Both the position numbers and the translations under genes were made by a program. The notes beneath the pieces were generated by a model, which worked only from the letters and a program-made list of their open reading frames with translations, did not search any database and was not told the origin of the DNA. This document shows, piece by piece, positions 1-9,132 of a stretch of 9,132 bases of DNA (positions are counted from its first letter, which is position 1; each line of letters starts with the position of its first letter). This DNA is from Actinomycetes bacterium (GTDB taxonomy: Bacteria; Actinomycetota; Acidimicrobiia; Acidimicrobiales; RAAP-2): the NCBI GenBank assembly GCA_021799915.1, contig JAJYZN010000085.1, positions 1 through 9,132 of the forward strand, written 5' to 3'.

Positions 1-873
1 CATGAGACACGGCGCCCACGAGCAGGTGCCTTCGAGAAGCCCCACCCTGAGCTCTGGGAAGCGCGCGAGAATGCCTCCGGACGTGAAGCACGCAGCGACA
101 AACATGATGCCGAGGGGTTGGTTGAAGGAATGCCAGAGCATCAGGCGGTCCAGGTGGGCACCAAAAGAGAAGTCCGGTAAGAGTGACGTTCGGCCACCTC
201 CGTGAAAGCACACGGCGACACCGAGTTCTTCGGCTGCTCTCCAGAGCGGGTCATAGCGCGGGTGGTGCCACGGCGCGGCGTCCACGAGCCCCGGAGCGAG
301 GAACGCTGCCTTGAACCCCAAGTCAACAGATCGCTGGAGCTCGGCAACCGCACCGTCCACGTCGTGGGGAGCGATCATTGACGCACCGAAGGTTCGGCCG
401 GGCAGACCACAGTCCTTCAGGAAGTCTGCCATCCAGTCGTTGTAGGCACGTGCAATGGCGGTTGCCAATGCCGGTTCCAGACCATCGGGACCCACGTAGT
501 CGGCGCTCTGCAACCCGAGCACGAACAGACCCCGGCTCGGGAACAGCACCGTGGAGTCGATTCCTTCGGCGCGCATCGCCTCCACTTGAGACGCGGCATC
601 GAAGAGCCGAGCCTCGGAGGCGGCGAGCGCCTCGTCTTGCTCTGCCCTCCACGGTCGGCCGCCCACCGATCCTATGCCCTCGCGAGGATGGGGACGGCCA
701 CTGCGGAGCAGGATCGCGTCTTTCACCCGGACTCGCATGTCTCTCGCTGTCTGGGTCAGACCGATCGGTGCAACGTGGGCCCATTTCGGGTCGATGTACC
801 GCTCCCAGAGATCGGCCGGCTCGACGACGTGCATATCGCTGTCGGCCACTCGCCAGTCGTTCGCCGTCGTCAC
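1..873 (-). CDS. Amidohydrolase-2 family metal-dependent hydrolase/decarboxylase, 3' end cut by window edge
   Basis: This reading frame is open without a stop from a GTG at 873 to the left edge, giving 291 visible residues of a protein normally near 380-410. It begins VTTANDWRVADSDMHVVEP. The D-x-H metal motif is D13-M14-H15, as expected for the N-terminal strand of PF04909 TIM-barrel enzymes (the ACMSD and gamma-resorcylate decarboxylase superfamily). A second metal histidine is likely H224 in CFHGGG, and E281 lies in LLEGTCSW, the counterpart of MTEQGGSW in the gene at 1596. The C-terminal aspartate motif (usually WGSDYPH) lies beyond the edge. The start is supported by GAGGAGGT five bases upstream (878-885). 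The gene diverges from the MarR gene and may share its operator. By family the reaction would be a cytosolic hydrolysis or non-oxidative decarboxylation, but the substrate is unknown. Codon use is less GC-biased than in the right half. Confidence 0.88.
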   Translation of the reverse strand, partial: MTTANDWRVADSDMHVVEPADLWERYIDPKWAHVAPIGLTQTARDMRVRVKDAILLRSGRPHPREGIGSVGGRPWRAEQDEALAASEARLFDAASQVEAMRAEGIDSTVLFPSRGLFVLGLQSADYVGPDGLEPALATAIARAYNDWMADFLKDCGLPGRTFGASMIAPHDVDGAVAELQRSVDLGFKAAFLAPGLVDAAPWHHPRYDPLWRAAEELGVAVCFHGGGRTSLLPDFSFGAHLDRLMLWHSFNQPLGIMFVAACFTSGGILARFPELRVGLLEGTCSWAPCLM

Positions 874-877
874 GGGT

Positions 878-885
878 ACCTCCTC
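878..885 (-). promoter_or_regulatory. Shine-Dalgarno site for the leftward amidohydrolase
   Basis: The minus strand reads GAGGAGGT here, a near-perfect anti-16S match, followed by a 4-5 base spacer and GTG at 873. It fixes the start of the leftward amidohydrolase, which has no competing in-frame start with a comparable site nearby. Confidence 0.75.
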
Positions 886-965
886 AATCGTCGTTCCGGC
901 TCACTCAGCCCCGCTCGACCCGTAGCTCCTGGTCGGCATGTGGGCCCAGGCCACCCATTTCATTG

Positions 966-980
966 TTTGACTCAGTCAAA
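966..980. promoter_or_regulatory. Perfect 15-base palindrome, probable MarR-family operator
   Basis: The sequence TTTGACTCAGTCAAA is a perfect inverted repeat with 7-base arms and one central base. It lies in the gap between the leftward amidohydrolase and the rightward MarR gene, in the most AT-rich stretch of the window (about 50% GC by hand count of 961-1020). Size, symmetry and place suit a dimeric winged-helix repressor encoded next door. It covers the putative -35 box TTGACT of the MarR promoter, so binding would block RNA polymerase. That MarR binds here is inference. No obvious second copy was seen in the gap. Confidence 0.65.
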
Positions 981-995
981 TGAATACCATACAGT
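967..995 (+). promoter_or_regulatory. Putative sigma-70-type promoter of the MarR-amidohydrolase transcript
   Basis: TTGACT at 967-972 and TACAGT at 990-995 are separated by exactly 17 bases, a good housekeeping promoter match in an otherwise GC-rich sequence. Transcription would begin near 1002-1003, which coincides with an in-frame GTG at 1003. The -35 box is inside the palindrome at 966-980. I found no comparably clear promoter on the minus strand for the divergent gene. Confidence 0.6.
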
Positions 996-1014
996 AGGCG
1001 TCGTGGACAGCGCT

Positions 1015-1020
1015 CGGAGG
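1015..1020 (+). promoter_or_regulatory. Shine-Dalgarno site deciding the MarR start
   Basis: CGGAGG ends six bases before the GTG at 1027, an optimal spacing. It favours 1027 over the in-frame GTG at 1003, which could only serve as a leaderless start, and over the TTG at 1021, which touches the site directly. Confidence 0.6.
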
Positions 1021-1026
1021 TTGCCG

Positions 1027-1599
1027 GTGGCGGTTTCGCTGCCCGCATCGTCTGCTGGCGAACAGGTCGAAGTTATTCAGCGAGCATTGTGGGAGATGCT
1101 TCGCCTCTATTCGAGCCGTCGGGCGTTCGCCGGTTGGTCAGCGGCGTCAGGCGTCCTCGTGTCCCAACCGGCGTTCGACCTGTTGGGCCGGGTCGAGGAG
1201 CGGGGACCGATCACCCTCGGCGAGCTGGGACGGCTGGCCCATATGGATCCTTCGGCGGTCGGTCGTCAGGTCCGGTCCCTGGAGGAGCTTGGCTTAGTGG
1301 ATCGATCGCCGAGCACGTCAGACCGGCGCGTGGTGGAAGTACGGCTCACGCACCGCGGCAAAGAGGTCCGGCACCGGGTGGCGTCGGCAGGAGCTCGACA
1401 CCTGGCGGACGAACTGGGCGCGTGGAGCGAATCTGATCGCCGTGCGCTTGCCAGGCTCCTACCCAAGCTGGTCTCGGATCTTCGGAGCCGGCGGTACGAG
1501 GTGTCCCGAGTCGGAGACGCCTCACTCCACGTTGCCCAGGCTAAACGAGAGAGCCCTACCCCCACGAAGCGGCGATCCGACGAAGGAGCGAGTCGATGA
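1027..1599 (+). CDS. MarR-family winged-helix transcriptional regulator
   Basis: About 190 residues. An N-terminal helical region (residues 15-55, including ALWEMLRLY) is followed by the winged helix-turn-helix at roughly residues 62-115. The recognition part reads ITLGELGRLAHMDPSAVGRQ, and then comes the wing with SDRRVVEVRLTHRGKEV, a classic MarR pattern. The C-terminal helices complete the dimerisation domain, and a polar, basic tail of about 35 residues follows, longer than usual. The start at 1027 is chosen for the CGGAGG site. GTG at 1003 is in frame and sits at the predicted transcription start, so a leaderless longer form is possible. The gene ends in ATGA shared with the next gene, so it is probably co-transcribed with the two downstream amidohydrolases and represses its own operon through the 966-980 palindrome. 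MarR proteins usually respond to small aromatic or phenolic ligands; the ligand here is unknown. Confidence 0.85.
   Translation: MAVSLPASSAGEQVEVIQRALWEMLRLYSSRRAFAGWSAASGVLVSQPAFDLLGRVEERGPITLGELGRLAHMDPSAVGRQVRSLEELGLVDRSPSTSDRRVVEVRLTHRGKEVRHRVASAGARHLADELGAWSESDRRALARLLPKLVSDLRSRRYEVSRVGDASLHVAQAKRESPTPTKRRSDEGASR
1583..1588 (+). promoter_or_regulatory. Shine-Dalgarno site for the amidohydrolase at 1596
   Basis: AAGGAG lies seven bases before the ATG at 1596, inside the last codons of the MarR gene. Together with the ATGA overlap it suggests both independent and coupled initiation. Confidence 0.65.
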
Positions 1600-2810
1600 C
1601 CGTCAGCTCACCTGAAGGAGAGCGGTACATCGTGATCTCGGCTGATTGCCATGCCGGCGCGAGCATCGACGACTACCGGGATTTTCTCGAGGCGGAATAT
1701 TGGGACGAGTTCGATTCGTGGCGAGAGGCGTACCGCAACCCTTTCCAGGACTTGAAAGGGGATCGCGGATCTCGCAACTGGGACTCCGAGCGCAGGACGG
1801 TAGACCTGGAAACCGACGGCATCGTGGGAGAAGTGGTCTTTCCCAACACGGTGCCACCGTTCTTTCCCACCGGTGCCGTCGTGGCCCGACCTCCGAGCTC
1901 TGAGGAGTACCGTCTTCGCCGGGCAGGTGTGAGAGCGCATAATCGCTGGTTGGCCCAGTGGTGTGCCGAACAGCCGGATCGTCGGGCCGGTGTGGCCCAG
2001 ATCTTCTTGAACGATATCGACGACGCGGTCGAAGATGTGCGCTTTGCCGCAGCGAAGGGCCTGAGGGGAGGTATCCTCCTTCCAGCCGTTCCTCCCGACG
2101 CTCCATGGCTCGAACCGCTGTACTCCCCGGCGTACGACCGCGTGTGGCAGGTCTGTGAGGACTTGGAAGTGGTGGTGAACCATCACTCGGGTGGGGGTAC
2201 TCCCGACTACGGCGACTATCCGGCGGCCAGCATCATCTGGCTCGCCGAGACCGCGTTCTTCTCGCGGCGCGCGCTCACCCACCTCATCGCCGGTGGCGTG
2301 TTCGACCGCTTTCCCAAGCTGCGGTTCGTGATGACTGAGCAGGGTGGGTCCTGGGTGCCGTCGGCGCTCTCCATGCTCGACGTCTTCTACTCGCAGATCG
2401 CTCCCTCGGGTCGCTTCGGTGAGCTGGCCGTCCCCCGGGAAGCCATGCTGGAGCACTTGCCCTCCGAGTACTTCGCCCGAAACTGCGCGGTGGCGGTGAG
2501 CTTTCCCAGTCCCAAGGATGCGCGTGCCCGACACGCCATCGGCATGGAACGTTTCCTTTGGGGGAGTGACTATCCCCATGCCGAGGGTACCTTCCCCCAC
2601 TCGGTGGCCGCGTTGCGGCGATCCTTCGCCGGGGTGGTCCCGACTGAGCTCGATGCCATCCTGGCGAAGAATCCAGCGACGGTCTACGGATTCGATCTCG
2701 ACCGCCTGGCGCCACTGGCCGCCCGCGTCGGCCCGCTCGTGTCCGAAGTCGCCCAACCGCTCGACAAGGTGCCTCCAGGCACGATGAGCCCGGCGTTCTA
2801 CCGTGACTGA
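1596..2810 (+). CDS. Amidohydrolase-2 family metal-dependent enzyme with intact active site
   Basis: 404 residues, a full-length member of PF04909. The N-terminal strand carries ISADCHAG with the D17-x-H19 metal pair. H196/H197 lie in VNHHSGGG, E248 in MTEQGGSW, and D325 in LWGSDYPHAEGTFPHS, followed by KNPATVYGFDL near the end. All are hallmark positions of the ACMSD-like amidohydrolases, which use a divalent metal for hydrolysis or non-oxidative decarboxylation in the cytosol. No signal peptide or membrane segment is visible. The ATG at 1596 has AAGGAG seven bases upstream and overlaps the MarR stop by four bases. The 3' end overlaps the next amidohydrolase gene by eight bases. The distribution of motifs matches the leftward gene at 1-873, so the two are probably paralogues. 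The substrate is not deducible. Confidence 0.9.
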   Translation: MTVSSPEGERYIVISADCHAGASIDDYRDFLEAEYWDEFDSWREAYRNPFQDLKGDRGSRNWDSERRTVDLETDGIVGEVVFPNTVPPFFPTGAVVARPPSSEEYRLRRAGVRAHNRWLAQWCAEQPDRRAGVAQIFLNDIDDAVEDVRFAAAKGLRGGILLPAVPPDAPWLEPLYSPAYDRVWQVCEDLEVVVNHHSGGGTPDYGDYPAASIIWLAETAFFSRRALTHLIAGGVFDRFPKLRFVMTEQGGSWVPSALSMLDVFYSQIAPSGRFGELAVPREAMLEHLPSEYFARNCAVAVSFPSPKDARARHAIGMERFLWGSDYPHAEGTFPHSVAALRRSFAGVVPTELDAILAKNPATVYGFDLDRLAPLAARVGPLVSEVAQPLDKVPPGTMSPAFYRD

Positions 2811-3690
2811 TCCCGTCATCTCCGGAGGCCCCGGCCACCACCGTGCCGGCGCGGACGACCGCCCGCCGATGGACGTGGTGGACATCTGGGTCAACTTCGT
2901 CTCCGACGACCTCGCCACGCAGTTCCTGTCCCAAGAGCAGAACCGCGACGTCAGCGACTACCTCGGAAGCTCGGAGCGCCGGGCCCAGGGGGCTGAGGCG
3001 GTGCTCTCGTCCATGGACGAGCTCGGTGTCGCCACCGGCATCGTGACGACCGACCTGGGGCGCGGCGCCGAAGAGGCACTCGAGGCCGCGGCCGAACACC
3101 CCGGTCGCCTACTCGTGGCCGGCGGTGTCACCGACCCGAGCCGTCCCACCCGCAACGTCCGGCGCATCCGTGCCCTGGCCGACGAACCGAGCTTCGTCAT
3201 GGTGCGCATCATGCCGGTGGCCACCGGGGCCAGGATCGACGATCCGAGGCACTATCCGGTCTACAGCGTGTGTGAGGAACTGCGCATCCCGGTGGGGATC
3301 AACGTCGGAGTGCCCGGTCCCAAGGTGAGGTCGCGGCTCCAGCACCCCGAGCTTCTCGAAGATGTCCTGATCGACTTCCCCGATCTCGTGGTGATCGGCG
3401 CTCACATGGGTCATCCATACGAAGAGCTGCTGATGAACTACATGCGCAAGTGGACCAACCTCTACCTGTCGTGCACCGCCTACGCCCCCCGGTACATGGA
3501 ACGGGCACTGCTGATGTTCATGGGAAGTACCACCTATCGAGGACGGGTCCTGTGGGGGAGCGACGAGCCGTGGTTCCCGATGCGCCGCTCCCTGGCCGAA
3601 GCCCGAGACCTGCCCCTCGACGACGGAGCGATGGCGTTGTTCCTCGGGGGGACGGCCCGACGCCTGTTCGCCCGGGACACCGGAGGCTGA
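2803..3690 (+). CDS. Divergent amidohydrolase-2 family protein with degenerate N-terminal metal site
   Basis: 295 residues from a GTG that overlaps the upstream stop by eight bases; an ATG at 2869 (giving MDVVDIWVNF) is an alternative start, and neither has a strong ribosome site. The fold is recognisable from VVIGAHMGHPYEELLMNY (H201, H204) and VLWGSDEPWF (D254). Where the family has D-x-H-x-H, however, this protein has D27-I-W29-V-N31. The mid-barrel histidine position, seen as VNHHSGGG in the gene before it, reads GINVGVPGP, with N167. So two or three metal-binding histidines appear replaced, while the later histidine and aspartate remain. It may use another metal arrangement, or be a non-catalytic partner of the intact enzyme with which it is translationally coupled. 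It is also about 100 residues shorter than its neighbour. Family assignment is secure at fold level; activity is uncertain. Confidence 0.82.
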   Translation: MTDPVISGGPGHHRAGADDRPPMDVVDIWVNFVSDDLATQFLSQEQNRDVSDYLGSSERRAQGAEAVLSSMDELGVATGIVTTDLGRGAEEALEAAAEHPGRLLVAGGVTDPSRPTRNVRRIRALADEPSFVMVRIMPVATGARIDDPRHYPVYSVCEELRIPVGINVGVPGPKVRSRLQHPELLEDVLIDFPDLVVIGAHMGHPYEELLMNYMRKWTNLYLSCTAYAPRYMERALLMFMGSTTYRGRVLWGSDEPWFPMRRSLAEARDLPLDDGAMALFLGGTARRLFARDTGG

Positions 3691-3766: not shown

Positions 3767-5035
3767 TCAGGTCCCGTCCACCACGGCCACGGCCAGTGGA
3801 CCTTCGACCAGAACGCAGACCCGGGCCTTCGGGCCGGCGTTGCCAACGGCCTCTTCCACCGCCGCCTGGAGGGAGTGGACGGGTCGGAGCTGGGCCGCGA
3901 CGGCCTCGGCGTCGACCACTCCGTCGCTGTGGAGCCAGACGTCGGCACGAGACAGGACGCGTCCGAGCACTTGGGCCTGCCACCGGTCGAGCGCCGCTTC
4001 CCCGTCGGCGCCGGCCAGCTCGGCCGGGTTGCCGGCTGCGGCCAGGATGCGGGCGAAGGCGCCCCCCGCCGGTACGCCGTCGGCACACGCCGCGGCGATC
4101 ACGATCGTCCCACCTTCCTTCACCACCCGGGCCGCCGCAGCCATGCCCTTCACCGCCTGATAGAGGTTCCGGTCGAGCGGATAACCGGCATTCGTGGTCA
4201 CGACGACGTCGAACAGCTCTCGCACCGGCACCACCGCCGTCGAGGTCACGAACTCGCACGCCCGCATGTGCCCTGTTGGCAGGGGCCCGGCGAACACCGC
4301 GGTGAGGCCCCGGGAACTGTTGATCGTCACGTCGATCGACAGATCCGGTGGCAGGAGGGAGGTGGCCCGGCGGACGAAGTCGTGGACCGGGTTCCCGTCG
4401 GTCCGCAGCCAAGTGGCGGCCGGGTCGGCGATCCGCGACGGGCTGTGGGCTTCGAGGATGGTGTCGGTGGCGGCCAGTCCCGGGCACACCGCCTTGGGTC
4501 CCCCGCTGAAGCCGGCGAAGAAGTGCGGCTCCACGAACCCGGTGCAGATCCGGACGTCGGAGGATACGTAGCGCCGATCCAACATGATCGGGACTCCGTC
4601 GACCCGTCCCACTGACACATGGCTGCCGTCGTCGGATCGGTGTTGGTGGATCCGGTAGCGGTCCAGGATCGCCGGGGACACGAGCTCTTCCATCTCGGGG
4701 CGCGAGGCCGCCCGGTGGGTCCCCGTGGCGCACAGCAGATCCACCCGATCGGGTCCCGCCCCGGCTCGTTCGAGCTCCGAGAGGAGTGGTGGCAGGACGG
4801 TGCGGAGTGGCATCGGTCGGGTGATGTCCGGGAAGACAACCACCACATGGTCCCGAGGCCCCAACAGCTCGACCAGTGCCGTGGGGCCGTCGCCGATCAG
4901 ATGGCTGAGCGCCGAGCGAACGGCGCCGGCTTCGTCGGGGAGGGTGGGGATGTCTACCGGCTCGACCACGAAGGTGTCGTCGGGGACCGACAGGTCCAGC
5001 TTCCCCGTCCCGTAGGGGAGCTGGACAGTTCTCAC
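3767..5035 (-). CDS. larA: LarA-family nickel-dependent 2-hydroxyacid racemase/epimerase
   Basis: 422 residues, matching the usual ~424 of lactate racemase LarA. Visible motifs are FPDITRP (D70, R73), CATGTHR (H107), GFVEPHFFAGFSGGPKAV (H171, K181), LEAHSPSR (H197) and YQAVKGM (Q293, K296). From memory these align, with a 1-3 residue offset, to L. plantarum LarA D72, R75, H108, H174, K184, H200, Q295 and K298. They cover the catalytic histidines, the lysine that tethers the nickel-pincer (NPN) cofactor and the substrate-binding residues. The family racemises or epimerises 2-hydroxy acids by hydride transfer, and members act on lactate, malate, phenyllactate or sugar acids such as gluconate. 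The GTG start overlaps the kinase stop (GTGA), with only a weak, distant GAGG, so translation is probably coupled. It is the last gene of the operon. Cofactor genes larB, larC and larE are not in the window. Given its neighbours, a sugar acid or glycerate-like substrate is more likely than lactate; that is inference. Confidence 0.9.
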   Translation of the reverse strand: MRTVQLPYGTGKLDLSVPDDTFVVEPVDIPTLPDEAGAVRSALSHLIGDGPTALVELLGPRDHVVVVFPDITRPMPLRTVLPPLLSELERAGAGPDRVDLLCATGTHRAASRPEMEELVSPAILDRYRIHQHRSDDGSHVSVGRVDGVPIMLDRRYVSSDVRICTGFVEPHFFAGFSGGPKAVCPGLAATDTILEAHSPSRIADPAATWLRTDGNPVHDFVRRATSLLPPDLSIDVTINSSRGLTAVFAGPLPTGHMRACEFVTSTAVVPVRELFDVVVTTNAGYPLDRNLYQAVKGMAAAARVVKEGGTIVIAAACADGVPAGGAFARILAAAGNPAELAGADGEAALDRWQAQVLGRVLSRADVWLHSDGVVDAEAVAAQLRPVHSLQAAVEEAVGNAGPKARVCVLVEGPLAVAVVDGT

Positions 5036-6579
5036 CGACGGCGACCGGGTACCTCGGCGGTGCCCGCAGTCCCGGTGGCTGCACCCACTCCGGGCTCACC
5101 GGCACCCGTCCCCGACCCCGACCCCGACCCCGGCCCCGTCCCGAGCCCCAGGAGGGTCGTGGTGACGTGATCGATCCAGGGCCGCAGCTCCCGGTAGGCG
5201 GCGACGGCGTCCGGGTCGGGCGTGATCACCTCGTCCAACGGGTCGAGCTGGTCGAGGTGCACGTCCAAGCCGATGGCTCCGGCGCCGAGGAGGGCCGCGC
5301 CGGCCGACGCCGCCTCTCCAGAGCAGCGTCGGGTGGCCGGCAGCCCCGACGTCGACGTCAGCACGTCGACCCACAGCGGGATCCGGCTCCCGGCTCCGGC
5401 GAGCGACAGCCCGGCGGGGGTCGGTGCCCCGGCGATGGCGGTGGGGGCCGAGTCGAGGCAGCGCACGACATCCCAGGCCACGGACTCGACCACGGCTCGC
5501 GCCGCGTCACCGGCATCATGGGCCGAGCTCAGCCCCACGAACCCGGCCCGGGCGTCGTCACGCCACCATGGCGCCCGAGCGCCGTCCAGCCAGGGGACGG
5601 CCACCACCCCCCGGGCTCCCGGTGGGCTCTGCGATGCCAGCGCGGCCAGAGACTCGGAGTCCCGTCCGGTGAGCCGGCCGAGCCATTCGAGGAACGCCCC
5701 CGCCGAAGACAGACCTCCTTCCACCAGCCACCCGCCACCCGCCCCACGGGAGATCACCATCCCGGCCGGGGACGGGTCGGGGCGGGCGTCCACCGGGAAG
5801 GAGATGTTCGCCGTGGTGCCCCAGCTCACCATGGGGCAGTCCACCGTCGCCCCCGAGCCGAGCACCTCGCACTGGCGGTCACCGGCGCCGATCACCACCG
5901 GGGTCCCCGGTCGCAGGCCCAGCTCGGCCGCCGGGACCGAGCGCAACGTTCCGATCACCTGGTCGGGCATGAGCACCGGGGCCAACCGCCCCGCTGCCGG
6001 CCCCACGATCTCGGGCACCGGGCTCCCGAACAGGTCGTAGAGGCCAGTGCGCGAAGCCAAGGTGACGTCGGTGGCCACCTCCCCGGTCAGACGCCACAGC
6101 ACCAGGTCCCTGGGTGACAAGAGCCAATCGCACGCCGCCAGCCGCTCGGGTTCGTGGGCCGCCAGCCAGTCGACCTTGGCCGCCATGGCGCCACTGTCGA
6201 GGGGCACACCGGTCAGGGTGCGGACCGCTTCGTCACCGCCGAGGCGCTCGGTGAGCTCGGCGGCTTCGTCGCCGGCACGGCGGTCGGACCACAAGAGACC
6301 CTTGCCCAGCGGATCGGCCGAGGAGGTCACCGGGACGAAGGTCTGGCGAGCGGCCGAGCAGCTCACCACGTCGACGGCGGTGAACGCTTTCGGGGCAGCC
6401 GCCCGGGCTTCGGCGCACCCGATCACCACCGAGGTCCACCAGCCGAACGGGTCCTGCTCGGCCCAGCCGAGGCGCGGGTGGGTGGTGGTCAGCTCGGCCC
6501 GGGCCAGGGTGACGAGACCGTCGTCGGCCCACAGCGCCACCTTCGTCACGCTGGTGCCGAAGTCCACGGTGAGGATCAC
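5032..6579 (-). CDS. FGGY-family carbohydrate kinase (xylulokinase-like)
   Basis: 515 residues. The N-terminal FGGY domain starts with VDFGTSVTK (D6-G8-T9), the first phosphate-binding loop. GAGDRQCEVLGSGA holds the probable catalytic base D234, followed by VSWGTTANIS as the second nucleotide loop at the domain junction. The C-terminal domain shows ARAPWWRDDARAGFVGL, LAGAGSRIPLW and GEAASAGAALLGAGAIG, all typical of the family. These kinases phosphorylate ketoses, polyols or some sugar acids with ATP in the cytosol; the exact substrate is unknown. The core ends near residue 478 and is followed by an unusual 37-residue Gly/Ser/Thr/Ala/Pro tail encoded by a hexamer repeat, probably disordered. 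The GTG start overlaps the aldolase stop (GTGA) and is preceded by tandem GGGAG. The stop overlaps the LarA start. It probably phosphorylates the substrate of the aldolase encoded just upstream. Confidence 0.92.
   Translation of the reverse strand: MILTVDFGTSVTKVALWADDGLVTLARAELTTTHPRLGWAEQDPFGWWTSVVIGCAEARAAAPKAFTAVDVVSCSAARQTFVPVTSSADPLGKGLLWSDRRAGDEAAELTERLGGDEAVRTLTGVPLDSGAMAAKVDWLAAHEPERLAACDWLLSPRDLVLWRLTGEVATDVTLASRTGLYDLFGSPVPEIVGPAAGRLAPVLMPDQVIGTLRSVPAAELGLRPGTPVVIGAGDRQCEVLGSGATVDCPMVSWGTTANISFPVDARPDPSPAGMVISRGAGGGWLVEGGLSSAGAFLEWLGRLTGRDSESLAALASQSPPGARGVVAVPWLDGARAPWWRDDARAGFVGLSSAHDAGDAARAVVESVAWDVVRCLDSAPTAIAGAPTPAGLSLAGAGSRIPLWVDVLTSTSGLPATRRCSGEAASAGAALLGAGAIGLDVHLDQLDPLDEVITPDPDAVAAYRELRPWIDHVTTTLLGLGTGPGSGSGSGTGAGEPGVGAATGTAGTAEVPGRRR
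5105..5140. repeat. Hexamer repeat CCCGNC x6 encoding the kinase C-terminal tail
   Basis: Six consecutive units of CCCG-N-C, of which three (5111-5128) are identical CCCGAC. On the minus strand they encode alternating Gly with Ser, Thr or Pro in the tail of the FGGY kinase. Short repeats of this type expand and contract by slippage, so the tail length may differ between strains. The repeat lies 70-110 bases before the kinase stop, so it does not supply the ribosome site of the next gene. Confidence 0.8.
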
Positions 6580-7412
6580 CTCCCGCTCCCGCTCCCGCTC
6601 CCGCTCCCGGCGCCGCCGGTCGCCGAGCCGTGGACCACCTCGGCCATCCGGCGGGCGGCTTCGTCAGGCCGGGGTTCCTGGTAGAGAGCCCTGCCGATGG
6701 CCATGCCGGCCCCCCCTCCGGCCATGACGTCCTCGGCTTCGACCAGTACCCGCTCCAGCGGATCCCCCCCGCCGTCCTCGCTCCGCCTCGGACCGCCGAG
6801 GAACAGGACCGGCACTCCCACGCTGGCCACCACCCGGGCCACGGCGTCGGTCCGGGCCGACCCCGCTTCGGCGTCGGGGACCGGGACCTTGAGGAGGGGC
6901 GCCCCCAAGTCGTGGGCCACCACGGCCGCGTAGACCACGTCGTCGACGCCGGTAGCCATGGCCCCGTCCCGCCACACGACCGGCTCGACCAGAGCTTCGA
7001 TCCCGCAGGTGCGGGCCTCTTCGAGGACCTGTCCCAGAAGCTCGAGGGCGCCGGCGGTCAGCGGGTCCGTCCGGTCGATGCGGGTCATGTGCTTCACCCC
7101 GGTCCACCCCTCCTCGGCCGCCCGGTGAACGCTGGCCACCAGCCGGTCGTCGAGCTCGAAGGCCGAGCCGGCCAGGCCGGTGCGGTTCACCGAGAGGTAG
7201 GTGCGGTGGTGCGCCCCGATGCTCCCGTCTCTGGACAGGTCGCCGAGCGGTTGGGCGCTGGCCAGGATCCCGTCACAGTGCGCCAGCGCGGCCGACAGGG
7301 CGGCGGTGTAAGTCCGGTAGTCCTCGATGGTGATCACCCCGCGGGCCCGGTGGTCCGCCGCCAGCACCAGCGCCGGCACCGGCAGTGAGCCGGGGTGGGC
7401 GGCGTTGCTCAC
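6576..7412 (-). CDS. Class I aldolase, (beta/alpha)8 barrel, resembling the Cgl0159 / DeoC-LacD-DhnA group
   Basis: 278 residues. The N-terminal strand reads LAADHRARG, then VNRTGLAGSAFELDDR (residues 75-90), a signature I associate with the Cgl0159 family found in a Corynebacterium inositol gene region. The C-terminal half has GVKHMTRID (K107), LVEPVVW (E143), LLKVPVPD with K175 as the likely Schiff-base lysine, LFLGGPR as a phosphate-binding loop (G206-G207), and GGAGMAIGRALYQ, as in class I LacD/DhnA aldolases. It should cleave a phosphorylated sugar or sugar acid into two smaller carbonyl compounds, such as DHAP plus an aldehyde. The start at 7412 is the GTG of a GTGA overlap with the dehydrogenase stop, with GGAG four and ten bases upstream; the frame stays open far upstream but that part is antisense-like shadow. 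The C-terminus (residues 262-278) is a Gly-Ser tail. The catalytic lysine assignment is by motif only. Confidence 0.86.
   Translation of the reverse strand: MSNAAHPGSLPVPALVLAADHRARGVITIEDYRTYTAALSAALAHCDGILASAQPLGDLSRDGSIGAHHRTYLSVNRTGLAGSAFELDDRLVASVHRAAEEGWTGVKHMTRIDRTDPLTAGALELLGQVLEEARTCGIEALVEPVVWRDGAMATGVDDVVYAAVVAHDLGAPLLKVPVPDAEAGSARTDAVARVVASVGVPVLFLGGPRRSEDGGGDPLERVLVEAEDVMAGGGAGMAIGRALYQEPRPDEAARRMAEVVHGSATGGAGSGSGSGSGR
6582..6609. repeat. Hexamer repeat CCCGCT x4 plus partial copy, encoding a Gly-Ser tail and tandem GGGAG
   Basis: Four identical CCCGCT units (6582-6605) and a partial fifth. On the minus strand they give Gly-Ser repeats at the aldolase C-terminus. The same bases give repeated GGGAG just before the kinase GTG at 6579; one copy ends exactly six bases upstream, an optimal Shine-Dalgarno spacing, and one abuts the start codon. 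Confidence 0.85.
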
Positions 7413-8314
7413 CCGGCTCCGGCTCCGAGGTCGGCTCCGGCCAGGCCCAGGATGACCTTGGCCACGGCCGAGAAGTCCTCGCGCCCGTAGCCAGCGGTGC
7501 TGGCCGCGGTGAGGGCCTGGCGGGCGGTGGCCGTCGTGGACAGGGGCACGCCGGTGCGGGCGGCGTAGGTCAGGGCCAGGTCCAGGTCCTTGGCCATGAG
7601 GTCGGTCATGAAGCCCGGTCGCCAACCGTTGGACGCCGGGCTCTCGGGGATGATCCCGGGCACCGGCAGGCGGGTGCGCACGGCCACGCAGTCGCCGGTG
7701 GCGTGCTCGAGGACGGTGAGCAGCTTGGCCATGTCCACTCCCGACTTCACGGCCAGGGCGGTGGCTTCGGCCGTCGCCACCATCTGGGCGGCGTAGATGA
7801 GGTTGTTGCAGAGCTTCACCACCTGGCCCATCCCCGGCCCTCCCACGTGGACCACGAGCCGGGCGAACGCCGCCAGCACCGGCTCGACCGTGGCCAGGTC
7901 CCCGGCGTCGCCGCCCACCATGAGGGTGAGGGTCCCGGCTTCGGCGCCGGCCGTCCCTCCCGATAGCGGCGCCTCCAGGTACGCCGCCCCGGTGGCGGTC
8001 ACCCGCTCGTGCTGGGCCCGCTCGACCTCGGGATCGATGGTGGAGCAGTCCACGACGGTGGTGCCCGGACCCAGCGCCGGCAGCAGGGCGTCGACCACGG
8101 ATGCCACGTCCGGGGAGCTCGGGACGCAGAGGATGACCACGTCGGCGGCGCCGGCCACGGCCGCGGTGGAATCCGCCTCGGCGGCTCCCCACCCCACGGC
8201 GATCTCGATCGGGCCGCGGCTCCGGGAGGCCACGGTCACCTGGTGACCGGCCTCGAGCAGGTGCCGGGTCATGGGCAGCCCCATGGCCCCCAGACCGATG
8301 AACCCCACCTTCAT
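7409..8314 (-). CDS. NAD(P)-dependent 3-hydroxyacid dehydrogenase (HIBADH / tartronate semialdehyde reductase type)
   Basis: 301 residues, the usual length for beta-hydroxyacid dehydrogenases. GFIGLGAMG (G7-x-G9-x-x-G12) is the Rossmann dinucleotide loop, APLSGGTAGA (S118-G-G) is the substrate-binding motif, GMGQVVKLCNN carries the catalytic K167 with N170/N171, and LMAKDLDLA (K242-D243) is the conserved C-terminal motif. Family members interconvert 3-hydroxy acids and semialdehydes (3-hydroxyisobutyrate, tartronate semialdehyde/glycerate, sulfolactaldehyde, L-threonate). In this operon it probably handles the aldehyde product of the aldolase. The ATG at 8314 has AGGAG five bases upstream (8320-8324). 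It follows the glycosidase gene by 30 bases and overlaps the aldolase start by GTGA. The C-terminus ends in a short Gly-Ala tail encoded by GGAGCC repeats. Substrate and cofactor preference cannot be settled from sequence. Confidence 0.93.
   Translation of the reverse strand: MKVGFIGLGAMGLPMTRHLLEAGHQVTVASRSRGPIEIAVGWGAAEADSTAAVAGAADVVILCVPSSPDVASVVDALLPALGPGTTVVDCSTIDPEVERAQHERVTATGAAYLEAPLSGGTAGAEAGTLTLMVGGDAGDLATVEPVLAAFARLVVHVGGPGMGQVVKLCNNLIYAAQMVATAEATALAVKSGVDMAKLLTVLEHATGDCVAVRTRLPVPGIIPESPASNGWRPGFMTDLMAKDLDLALTYAARTGVPLSTTATARQALTAASTAGYGREDFSAVAKVILGLAGADLGAGAG
7415..7438. repeat. GGCTCC repeat at the dehydrogenase-aldolase junction
   Basis: Two adjacent GGCTCC units (7415-7426) and a third at 7433-7438 after a six-base interruption. 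On the minus strand they encode Gly-Ala pairs at the end of the dehydrogenase and place GGAG four and ten bases before the aldolase GTG at 7412. The arrangement is the same as at 6582-6609 but uses a different hexamer. Confidence 0.7.
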
Positions 8315-8319
8315 CTGTG

Positions 8320-8324
8320 CTCCT
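8320..8324 (-). promoter_or_regulatory. Shine-Dalgarno site for the dehydrogenase
   Basis: AGGAG on the minus strand, five bases before the ATG at 8314, in the 30-base gap after the glycosidase stop. It supports the chosen start. The gap is too short for a clear separate promoter, so co-transcription with the glycosidase is likely. Confidence 0.7.
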
Positions 8325-8344
8325 ATCCGTTGCTCTCTACAGGG

Positions 8345-9132
8345 TCACGTGAACTGCGGCAGCCAGCGCCCGGTGTGCTCCATGAGCTCGCCCACCATGG
8401 CGTCGGTCCGCCGAAGATCGCCCCGCCCGGCCAGCGGGTCGAGGGCGTAGGCGGCACCGGCCAGGACCCGATCGCCGGTGAGGGCCGCCTCCACGGTGAG
8501 CTCCTGGACGGCGACGTGGCGCCGAAGCAGCTCGGCAAACGGCGGCGGCGTCACCACCCGGTCCCGGCCGCGCACCCCGTCGGCGTCGACGACGCCGATC
8601 GACTCGACCACGGCTCCTTCGGGCAGGTCGGGGCACTGCCCGGTGTTGGGGATGTTCACGGGTGCCTCCAGGGGCGTCCCGGTCACCAGGGCGTCGATGA
8701 CCGGTCCCGGAAGCTCACCGGACTGCCAGGTCTGGAGGTCCTTGCTGCCGTCCAGCCAGGCCTCCACGTCGGCGACGTAGCCGGCCTGGTGCCGCTCACG
8801 CTCTGCGATGGTGGTGCACTCGATGCCGTAGTCGGCGCCCCACCCTGAGTCCTCGGTCAGCACCGAGGGCAGGAACTCGGCCAGGTGCCGGTCGCCGGCG
8901 GCCGGCACCGCACCCCAGCGGTCCAAGAAGGTGAGGGACAGGACGTGGCGCCGGGCGAAGTCCAACGGCGTGAAGGGATCGGCCTCGGGTCGGCCGGCAA
9001 CCGGGGCCAGGGCCGCCGGACCACCGGCGTCGGCGACGATCTGACGGAGGACCCCGATGCCGTCCTGGCCGTCGATGTCGAGCTCGGTGATCACCGGGAA
9101 ATGGTTCACGCCGGCCACCCGGGGCCGGATCG
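8345..9132 (-). CDS. Glycoside hydrolase family 4 enzyme, C-terminal part (5' end beyond window)
   Basis: 262 residues are visible; the frame stays open to the right edge, so the GTG at 9118 is an internal codon and the gene starts outside the window (family length is usually 430-470). VAGVNHF near the edge is the GH4 motif whose asparagine and histidine sit at the Mn/NAD active site. GDRHLAEFLP follows (8870-8899). The C-terminal signature includes VNIPNTGQCPDLPEGAVVES, then AVQELTVEAALTGD and ALDPLAG. GH4 enzymes use NAD+ and a divalent metal to oxidise C3 of a glycoside transiently and eliminate the aglycone. Members cleave alpha- or beta-glucosides, galactosides, glucuronides or 6-phosphoglycosides. 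The residues that separate these activities lie mostly in the missing N-terminal part. It is the first visible gene of the operon and likely supplies the sugar processed by the downstream enzymes. Confidence 0.87.
   Translation of the reverse strand, partial: IRPRVAGVNHFPVITELDIDGQDGIGVLRQIVADAGGPAALAPVAGRPEADPFTPLDFARRHVLSLTFLDRWGAVPAAGDRHLAEFLPSVLTEDSGWGADYGIECTTIAERERHQAGYVADVEAWLDGSKDLQTWQSGELPGPVIDALVTGTPLEAPVNIPNTGQCPDLPEGAVVESIGVVDADGVRGRDRVVTPPPFAELLRRHVAVQELTVEAALTGDRVLAGAAYALDPLAGRGDLRRTDAMVGELMEHTGRWLPQFT

Follow-up and report, generated by a model that had tools for sequence, protein, structure and literature searches.

A block of five genes on the minus strand of contig JAJYZN010000085.1, from an Actinomycetes bacterium of the order Acidimicrobiales, encodes in 5' to 3' order a GH4 glycosidase, a 3-hydroxyisobutyrate dehydrogenase (HIBADH)-type enzyme, a class I aldolase, an FGGY kinase and LarA, a 2-hydroxyacid racemase of the nickel-pincer nucleotide (NPN) type. 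We tentatively read this block as an Acidimicrobiales catabolic cluster for the glycoside of a uronic acid. This glycoside, probably a plant-derived alpha-galacturonoside (pectin-type), would be degraded by way of dihydroxyacetone phosphate (DHAP) and tartronate semialdehyde, with LarA racemising glycerate; we regard this as possible rather than probable. The families, motifs and conservation described below are read from the sequence, and from them we infer every substrate and, as the original prediction of this gene set had also done, the order of the steps. The window, i.e. the whole stretch of 9,132 nucleotides that was analysed, corresponds to positions 12059-21190 of contig C52 of the organism's own genome (G000; 155 contigs, 2.46 Mb, 95.7% complete).

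The GH4 and dehydrogenase genes are separated by 30 bases and the other three junctions are 4-base overlaps, so that the single-strand layout originally described is borne out by the gene coordinates; judged from spacing alone, the five genes would be co-transcribed. The family names stand as well, all five proteins matching Pfam models above cut-off: Glyco_hydro_4C (101.9 bits), NAD_binding_2 and NAD_binding_11 (151.5 and 107.6), Cgl0159 and DeoC (79.2 and 42.1), FGGY_N and FGGY_C (136.4 and 75.8) and Lar_N and LarA_C (166.5 and 102.9). Named genomes were scanned with an aldolase alignment of 20 rows; the scan relies on short conserved peptides and hence reaches close relatives only. It found 19 loci, of which 17 carry the label Acidimicrobiales, Acidimicrobiaceae or Acidimicrobiia, one Actinomycetes and one Eremiobacterota. 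In nine of these (L027, L028, L029, L031, L034, L035, L036, L038 and L039) all five genes are present with their order kept, the proteins being 51-78% identical across complete loci. This recurrence is more than chance and bears out the conserved neighbourhood that the original prediction had proposed looking for. LarA alone is absent from L032, L033 and L040; L030 is without the dehydrogenase and LarA, L042 is without GH4, L041 holds aldolase and kinase only, L043 and L045 hold the aldolase only, and L037 and L044 end at contig edges, L044 without LarA. The aldolase occurs in 9 of 100 relatives and GH4 of the cluster type in 12 of the 172 genomes of the organism's own family; an aldolase profile matched two of 396 genomes of the phylum, namely the own genome and one distant match (96.7 bits), and a plasmid search gave no match. 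In L045, whose contig bears the label Candidatus Eremiobacterota, the aldolase is a fragment (L045:30-407; 63%) that lies at the contig edge beside NADH dehydrogenase genes and represents either a transfer or a binning error.

The choice of substrate begins with the glycosidase, which has the GH4 domain with its NAD fold and the metal-binding CH motif. Its best solved relative is the LplD alpha-galacturonidase 3fef (190 bits over residues 2-421; the next relative scores 130), and the motif CHEV is present in 13 of 13 rows, as C167-H168-E169-V170 of the full protein, encoded beyond the window. This motif is reportedly tied to alpha-galacturonidase, going by the title, as cited, of a 2013 paper by Thompson. 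By motif and by sequence likeness, which extends over the full length of Bacillus subtilis LplD, the protein is of the LplD alpha-galacturonidase type. A second GH4 paralogue (41-45% identity) is found in four genomes (G001, G016, G024 and G044), with no common gene set among the gene-called neighbours on the four stretches.

The next three genes encode the dehydrogenase, the aldolase and the kinase. All 19 kinase rows have Arg at the Met of the XylB motif QMHG, and the residue after it is Q in 16 rows and E in the other three; QMHG itself is absent, the protein scores 211.2 bits against the xylulokinase model TIGR01312 (cut-off 380), and its motif is AARQ, the R-E form resembling the R-E of GlpK. 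This Arg could hold a substrate carboxylate. The aldolase exceeds the cut-off of its Cgl0159-like family (PF22649; 27 bits) by a wide margin, and its candidate Schiff-base residue is Lys in 19 of 19 rows. A structural model (mean pLDDT 83.4) has DHAP-binding class I aldolases and Cgl0159 as its nearest structures, within about one Z unit, and YihT follows closely; the protein is predicted to have a DHAP-aldolase fold. All 15 dehydrogenase rows carry the motif SGG, which GarR, GlxR and YgbJ share but YihU (GRT) does not; the protein falls under the cut-offs both of the 3-hydroxyisobutyrate dehydrogenase model TIGR01692 (276.9 against 291.6 bits) and of the YihU-type model NF012005 (148.3 against 348). 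Sequences covering less than 75% of the query as a single piece were left out of these motif counts (dehydrogenase of L031 and L044; GH4 of L031, L033 and L036). The aldolase and FGGY proteins both end in Gly/Ser-rich low-complexity tails (window 6576-6640 and 5032-5110), and the repeat DNA encoding each tail sits just upstream of the following gene's start.

Aligned to LarA_Lp and LarA_Ip, LarA keeps all NPN and catalytic residues (Table 1), which upholds the original statement that they are intact. According to one study (PMC11770544), four specificity positions split LarA activities (F175, F176, W358 and T359 of LarA_Lp), reading F,F,W,E/Q in lactate/glycerate racemases and E,V,A,H in gluconate epimerases, and LarAH43, which shares the Q, favours glycerate. 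In the cluster enzyme the corresponding residues (F172, F173, W352 and Q353) form the quartet F,F,W,Q, which all 14 rows have; one row (G075) does not come from this cluster. By this quartet LarA is of the lactate/glycerate type, in support of one of the two roles first suggested for it, namely racemisation of a glycerate-like three-carbon product. The Q by itself is not proof of type, because LarA_Ip also has W,Q, preceded by L,M. The cluster enzyme shares with LarA_Lp, LarAH43 and LarA_Ip the catalytic and NPN residues and, apart from the L,M of LarA_Ip, the F,F,W,Q quartet; unlike these racemases it lies in a sugar-acid operon rather than a lar operon, and it scores below the cut-off of the lactate racemase equivalog NF033504 (391.4 against 460 bits). 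Against the hexonate-epimerase model it reaches 24 bits (cut-off 500).

LarA of this type (LAR-type) was counted in 9 of 100 relatives, from Lar_N scores over the 100 genomes with the motif read in the 30 best-scoring loci only, and in eight of the nine it directly follows this FGGY gene. LarC (PF01969) was detected in the own genome. Lar_N itself is present in 79 of the 100 relatives, and many of them possess a second LarA homologue, a longer one (in the own genome at G000:C27:23589-24182), so the NPN cofactor is not private to the cluster. As a separate observation, of the 16 matches to the uronate isomerase UxaC in the 100 relatives, 13 have a partial Lar_N match at a distance of about 4 kb or less (G004:C118, G011:C23, G020:C20, G021:C34, G023:C123, G024:C116, G035:C166, G043:C23, G051:C188, G054:C84 and C115, G058:C140 and G065:C9); the LarA-type enzyme at these sites is of a second, different kind, perhaps from the hexonate-epimerase group.

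Put together, these parts suggest the following scheme. A HAAT-type ABC system would import the glycoside and GH4 would free a D-hexuronate, which an enzyme other than the five would convert to a keto-uronate (tagaturonate or fructuronate, i.e. a 5-keto-aldonate). The FGGY kinase would phosphorylate this at its CH2OH end, with the motif Arg facing the carboxylate, and the class I aldolase would cleave between C3 and C4, releasing DHAP and tartronate semialdehyde. Reduction of the latter by the HIBADH-type enzyme would yield L-glycerate, which LarA would convert to D-glycerate for a glycerate kinase. When the Fischer projection of a D-hexuronate is turned round, the C5 hydroxyl points left (our own derivation from established sugar chemistry), and because of this C5 configuration the glycerate formed would be the L-form, provided that C2 of the semialdehyde is not scrambled first. 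Ordinary glycerate kinases accept D-glycerate, and it is for this reason that LarA would be needed. The logic of the scheme copies that of inositol breakdown (a keto-acid phosphate split into DHAP and malonate semialdehyde) and of the sulfo-Embden-Meyerhof-Parnas (sulfo-EMP) pathway (DHAP and sulfolactaldehyde, with a HIBADH-family reductase), and we file the cluster as a kinase-aldolase-reductase scheme with an added racemase. It also resembles the GarD-GarL-GarR-GarK route of Escherichia coli, where GarR, a beta-hydroxyacid dehydrogenase with 36% identity, likewise makes glycerate from a three-carbon aldehyde acid; unlike the cluster, that route has a pyruvate-type aldolase, needs no sugar kinase and has no racemase. 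That the block encodes a phosphorylative uronate route, in which an FGGY kinase and a class I aldolase work with a nickel-pincer racemase turning L-glycerate to D-glycerate, we consider a rather doubtful proposition as yet. A literature search, whose coverage left out most subscription journals, returned no paper on a tagaturonate or fructuronate kinase or phosphate or on a named glycerate racemase, nothing on the gene combination (including Cgl0159, iolJ and tartronate semialdehyde, or lactate racemase with FGGY and aldolase) and nothing linking L-glycerate, galacturonate and a racemase.

Several observations weigh against the galacturonoside scheme. The isomerase step is missing, because UxaC, the Ashwell isomerase, is absent from the own genome and from eight of the nine aldolase-bearing genomes, and KduI was found in none of the 13 cluster genomes. 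Overall identity of GH4 to LplD is low. The own genome is without both glycerate kinase families searched (PF02595 and PF13660); PF13660 was found in none of the 13 cluster genomes, and PF02595, present in the other 12 and in 78 of the 100 relatives, is a non-discriminating partner since it is common without the aldolase as well (8 of 9 aldolase-bearing against 70 of 91 other relatives). In the dehydrogenase pocket Val takes the place of a HIBADH Trp, and there are two further conserved Arg (VRTRLP); for these reasons 3-hydroxyisobutyrate is probably not the substrate, and the actual one may exceed tartronate semialdehyde in size or acidity. LarA is accessory to the cluster: among the aldolase-selected clusters with the downstream side in view it is present in 11 of 17 and absent in six (three loci with no FGGY gene in view, L037, L043 and L045, lie outside this count, as do G016 and G084, which were found via LarA), and the clusters without it are dispersed over the FGGY tree (six changes). 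LarA and the other four proteins co-diverge weakly (r 0.27 over eight loci, a value equalled or exceeded in 520 of 5000 permutations; r 0.03 for FGGY and LarA alone). Finally, G016 has GH4, dehydrogenase, FGGY, LarA and transporter with no aldolase in the block, nor any above E 1e-20 in the genome, and G084 has FGGY, LarA and transporter with the other three genes not nearby. Confidence in the scheme is kept low by the isomerase, the aldolase-less clusters, the glycerate kinase and the weak co-divergence of LarA.

Several other readings compete with it. L-Rhamnose is the partner of galacturonate in rhamnogalacturonan, and an LplD-type GH4 would free both sugars. FGGY might then be a rhamnulokinase, RhaB being among the FGGY kinases, and the aldolase would yield DHAP and lactaldehyde, with LarA racemising lactate, which its quartet also fits; a GH78 rhamnosidase gene lies upstream in L029 and L038. 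We nevertheless find this deoxysugar route unlikely. HIBADH-family enzymes work beside an acid group, which lactaldehyde lacks; the cluster kinase is distant from RhaB (20% identity) with Arg at the sugar motif; and the isomerase RhaI (TIGR02635) exceeded its cut-off in none of the 13 genomes, which gave three weak matches, the E. coli-type RhaA not being part of the search.

An inositol-like route, in which a 2-deoxy-5-keto-aldonate phosphate is split to DHAP and malonate semialdehyde and the latter reduced to 3-hydroxypropionate, is in our judgement just as unlikely. It would account for the aldolase, whose nearest named family is Cgl0159, a member of what we take to be the inositol locus of Corynebacterium glutamicum, and for the dehydrogenase, as HIBADHs reduce malonate semialdehyde. 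The proposed split to DHAP and a three-carbon carboxylate semialdehyde is common to both, but the cluster differs from the myo-inositol pathway in having an FGGY kinase, GH4 and LarA, and its annotated neighbours include no inositol dehydrogenase or other Iol gene. GH4 would stay unexplained, and LarA, left to some other lactate or glycerate need, would have no pathway substrate despite the tie between LAR-type LarA and the cluster.

It is improbable that FGGY is itself a glycerate kinase paired with LarA (L- to D-glycerate to phosphoglycerate), with the aldolase acting on an unphosphorylated sugar acid. The adjacency of FGGY and LarA is kept in G084 and in the aldolase-less G016, the R-Q/R-E motif matches the R-E of GlpK, and the own genome is without both glycerate kinase families searched. 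The position of the GlpK Tyr is however Gly, Ala or Ser, as in XylB, because of which the kinase pocket looks sugar-sized; the aldolase fold is nearest to DHAP-binding aldolases, PF02595 is available in nearly all cluster genomes, and we know of no FGGY glycerate kinase.

Sulfoquinovose degradation was considered first, all enzyme types matching: the sulfo-EMP pathway (YihQ/S/V/T/U in E. coli) likewise joins a glycosidase, a sugar kinase, a class I DHAP aldolase and a HIBADH-family C3 reductase. A variant with LarA on sulfolactate could also draw on the nearness of the aldolase fold to YihT, on a TauD-family gene beside five clusters and on the occurrence of sulfo-EMP in Actinobacteria, as an excerpt of PMC12890257 has it. 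It was set aside, and we hold it to be very improbable, on account of the SGG motif in place of the YihU-type GRT and of the LplD-type GH4. The GRT of YihU has a role in sulfonate binding. The cluster glycosidase and FGGY kinase are non-homologous to those of sulfo-EMP, GH4 being neither GH31 nor GH188 (the NAD-dependent sulfoquinovosidase GH188 was considered; the protein is Pfam GH4); the block has no PfkB kinase and no YihS (PF07221 was not searched across genomes), and LarA is an addition. A term search of the main text of PMC11770544 did not find sulfolactate among the LarA substrates. Least credible of all is the other role first suggested for LarA, epimerisation of an aldonate at C2 ahead of the kinase, since despite the FGGY-LarA adjacency and the gluconate epimerases among LarA homologues (an excerpt of PMC7583248) the quartet is F,F,W,Q and not E,V,A,H in any row, by the rule excerpted from PMC11770544, and the hexonate-epimerase score is well under cut-off.

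The linked transporter that the original prediction had proposed seeking was found in the relatives. It includes a fusion protein of 730-odd residues, an MFS transporter domain joined to a LivF-like ABC ATPase (G000:C52:8068-10272, outside the window; L029:13541-15745; L088:9952-12144), which in 14 clusters comes directly after LarA, or after the kinase if the cluster has no LarA. Where the contig extends further, genes for a fused LivH-LivM permease, for a LivG-type ATPase and for a Peripla_BP_6 binding protein follow, and by its domains the set is a HAAT-type ABC transporter; to our knowledge no role has been described for an MFS/LivF-like ATPase fusion. In the own genome the transporter genes are on the same strand, 5.5 kb from larA, behind an insert (window 1-3690; G000:C52, about 10273-15824) that is peculiar to this genome among the clusters compared; besides a MarR gene and three amidohydrolase genes it holds a distant HIBADH paralogue (32% identity; about C52:10372-11286, outside the window). 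Past the binding protein, six clusters encode an AXE1/Abhydrolase_7-like esterase (G000:C52, about 1392-2390), and the TauD-family dioxygenase gene is on the opposite strand (G000:C52, about 2579-3409). At the other end, an opposite-strand gene starts about 44 bases upstream of GH4, an SDR gene lies upstream in five clusters, and some loci are preceded by Epimerase-family and amino-acid permease genes; neither these nor the SDR genes have a place in the proposed scheme. On the whole, layout, families and three-carbon racemisation from the original prediction are supported and C2 epimerisation is not; the transporter, the LplD-type GH4 and the accessory nature of LarA had escaped it for lack of data.

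Table 1 Features of the window (positions within the 9,132 nucleotides)
Feature	Position	Strand	Remarks
GH4 glycosidase, LplD-type	8345..9132 (stop at 8345)	-	C-terminal 261 residues inside window
Full GH4, 448 aa	GTG start at 9691, beyond window end	-	read on own contig
HIBADH-family beta-hydroxyacid dehydrogenase, 301 aa	7409..8314	-	S118-G119-G120 and K167 retained
Class I aldolase, Cgl0159/DeoC type, 278 aa	6576..7412	-	K175, Schiff-base lysine candidate
FGGY kinase, xylulokinase-like, 515 aa	5032..6579	-	Arg replaces Met of XylB QMHG motif
LarA, NPN-type 2-hydroxyacid racemase, 422 aa	3767..5035	-	R73, H107, H171, K181, H197
MarR regulator, outside system	about 916-1599	+	in insert
Amidohydro_2 gene, outside system	1-873	-	in insert
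Amidohydro_2 gene, outside system	1596-2810	+	in insert
Amidohydro_2 gene, outside system	2803-3690	+	in insert

If the galacturonoside scheme is true, the route would be distinct from three others for uronates (isomerase, oxidative and fungal reductive) and would save half of the carbon as DHAP with no dehydration. Racemisation of glycerate by LarA has been measured in vitro, its physiological significance being left open in the excerpted text of PMC11770544. The scheme would provide such a role in sugar-acid catabolism and would explain a lactate-racemase-type enzyme in a sugar operon as the rescue of the wrong glycerate enantiomer. It would also hint at the diet of uncultured Acidimicrobiales in peat and permafrost.

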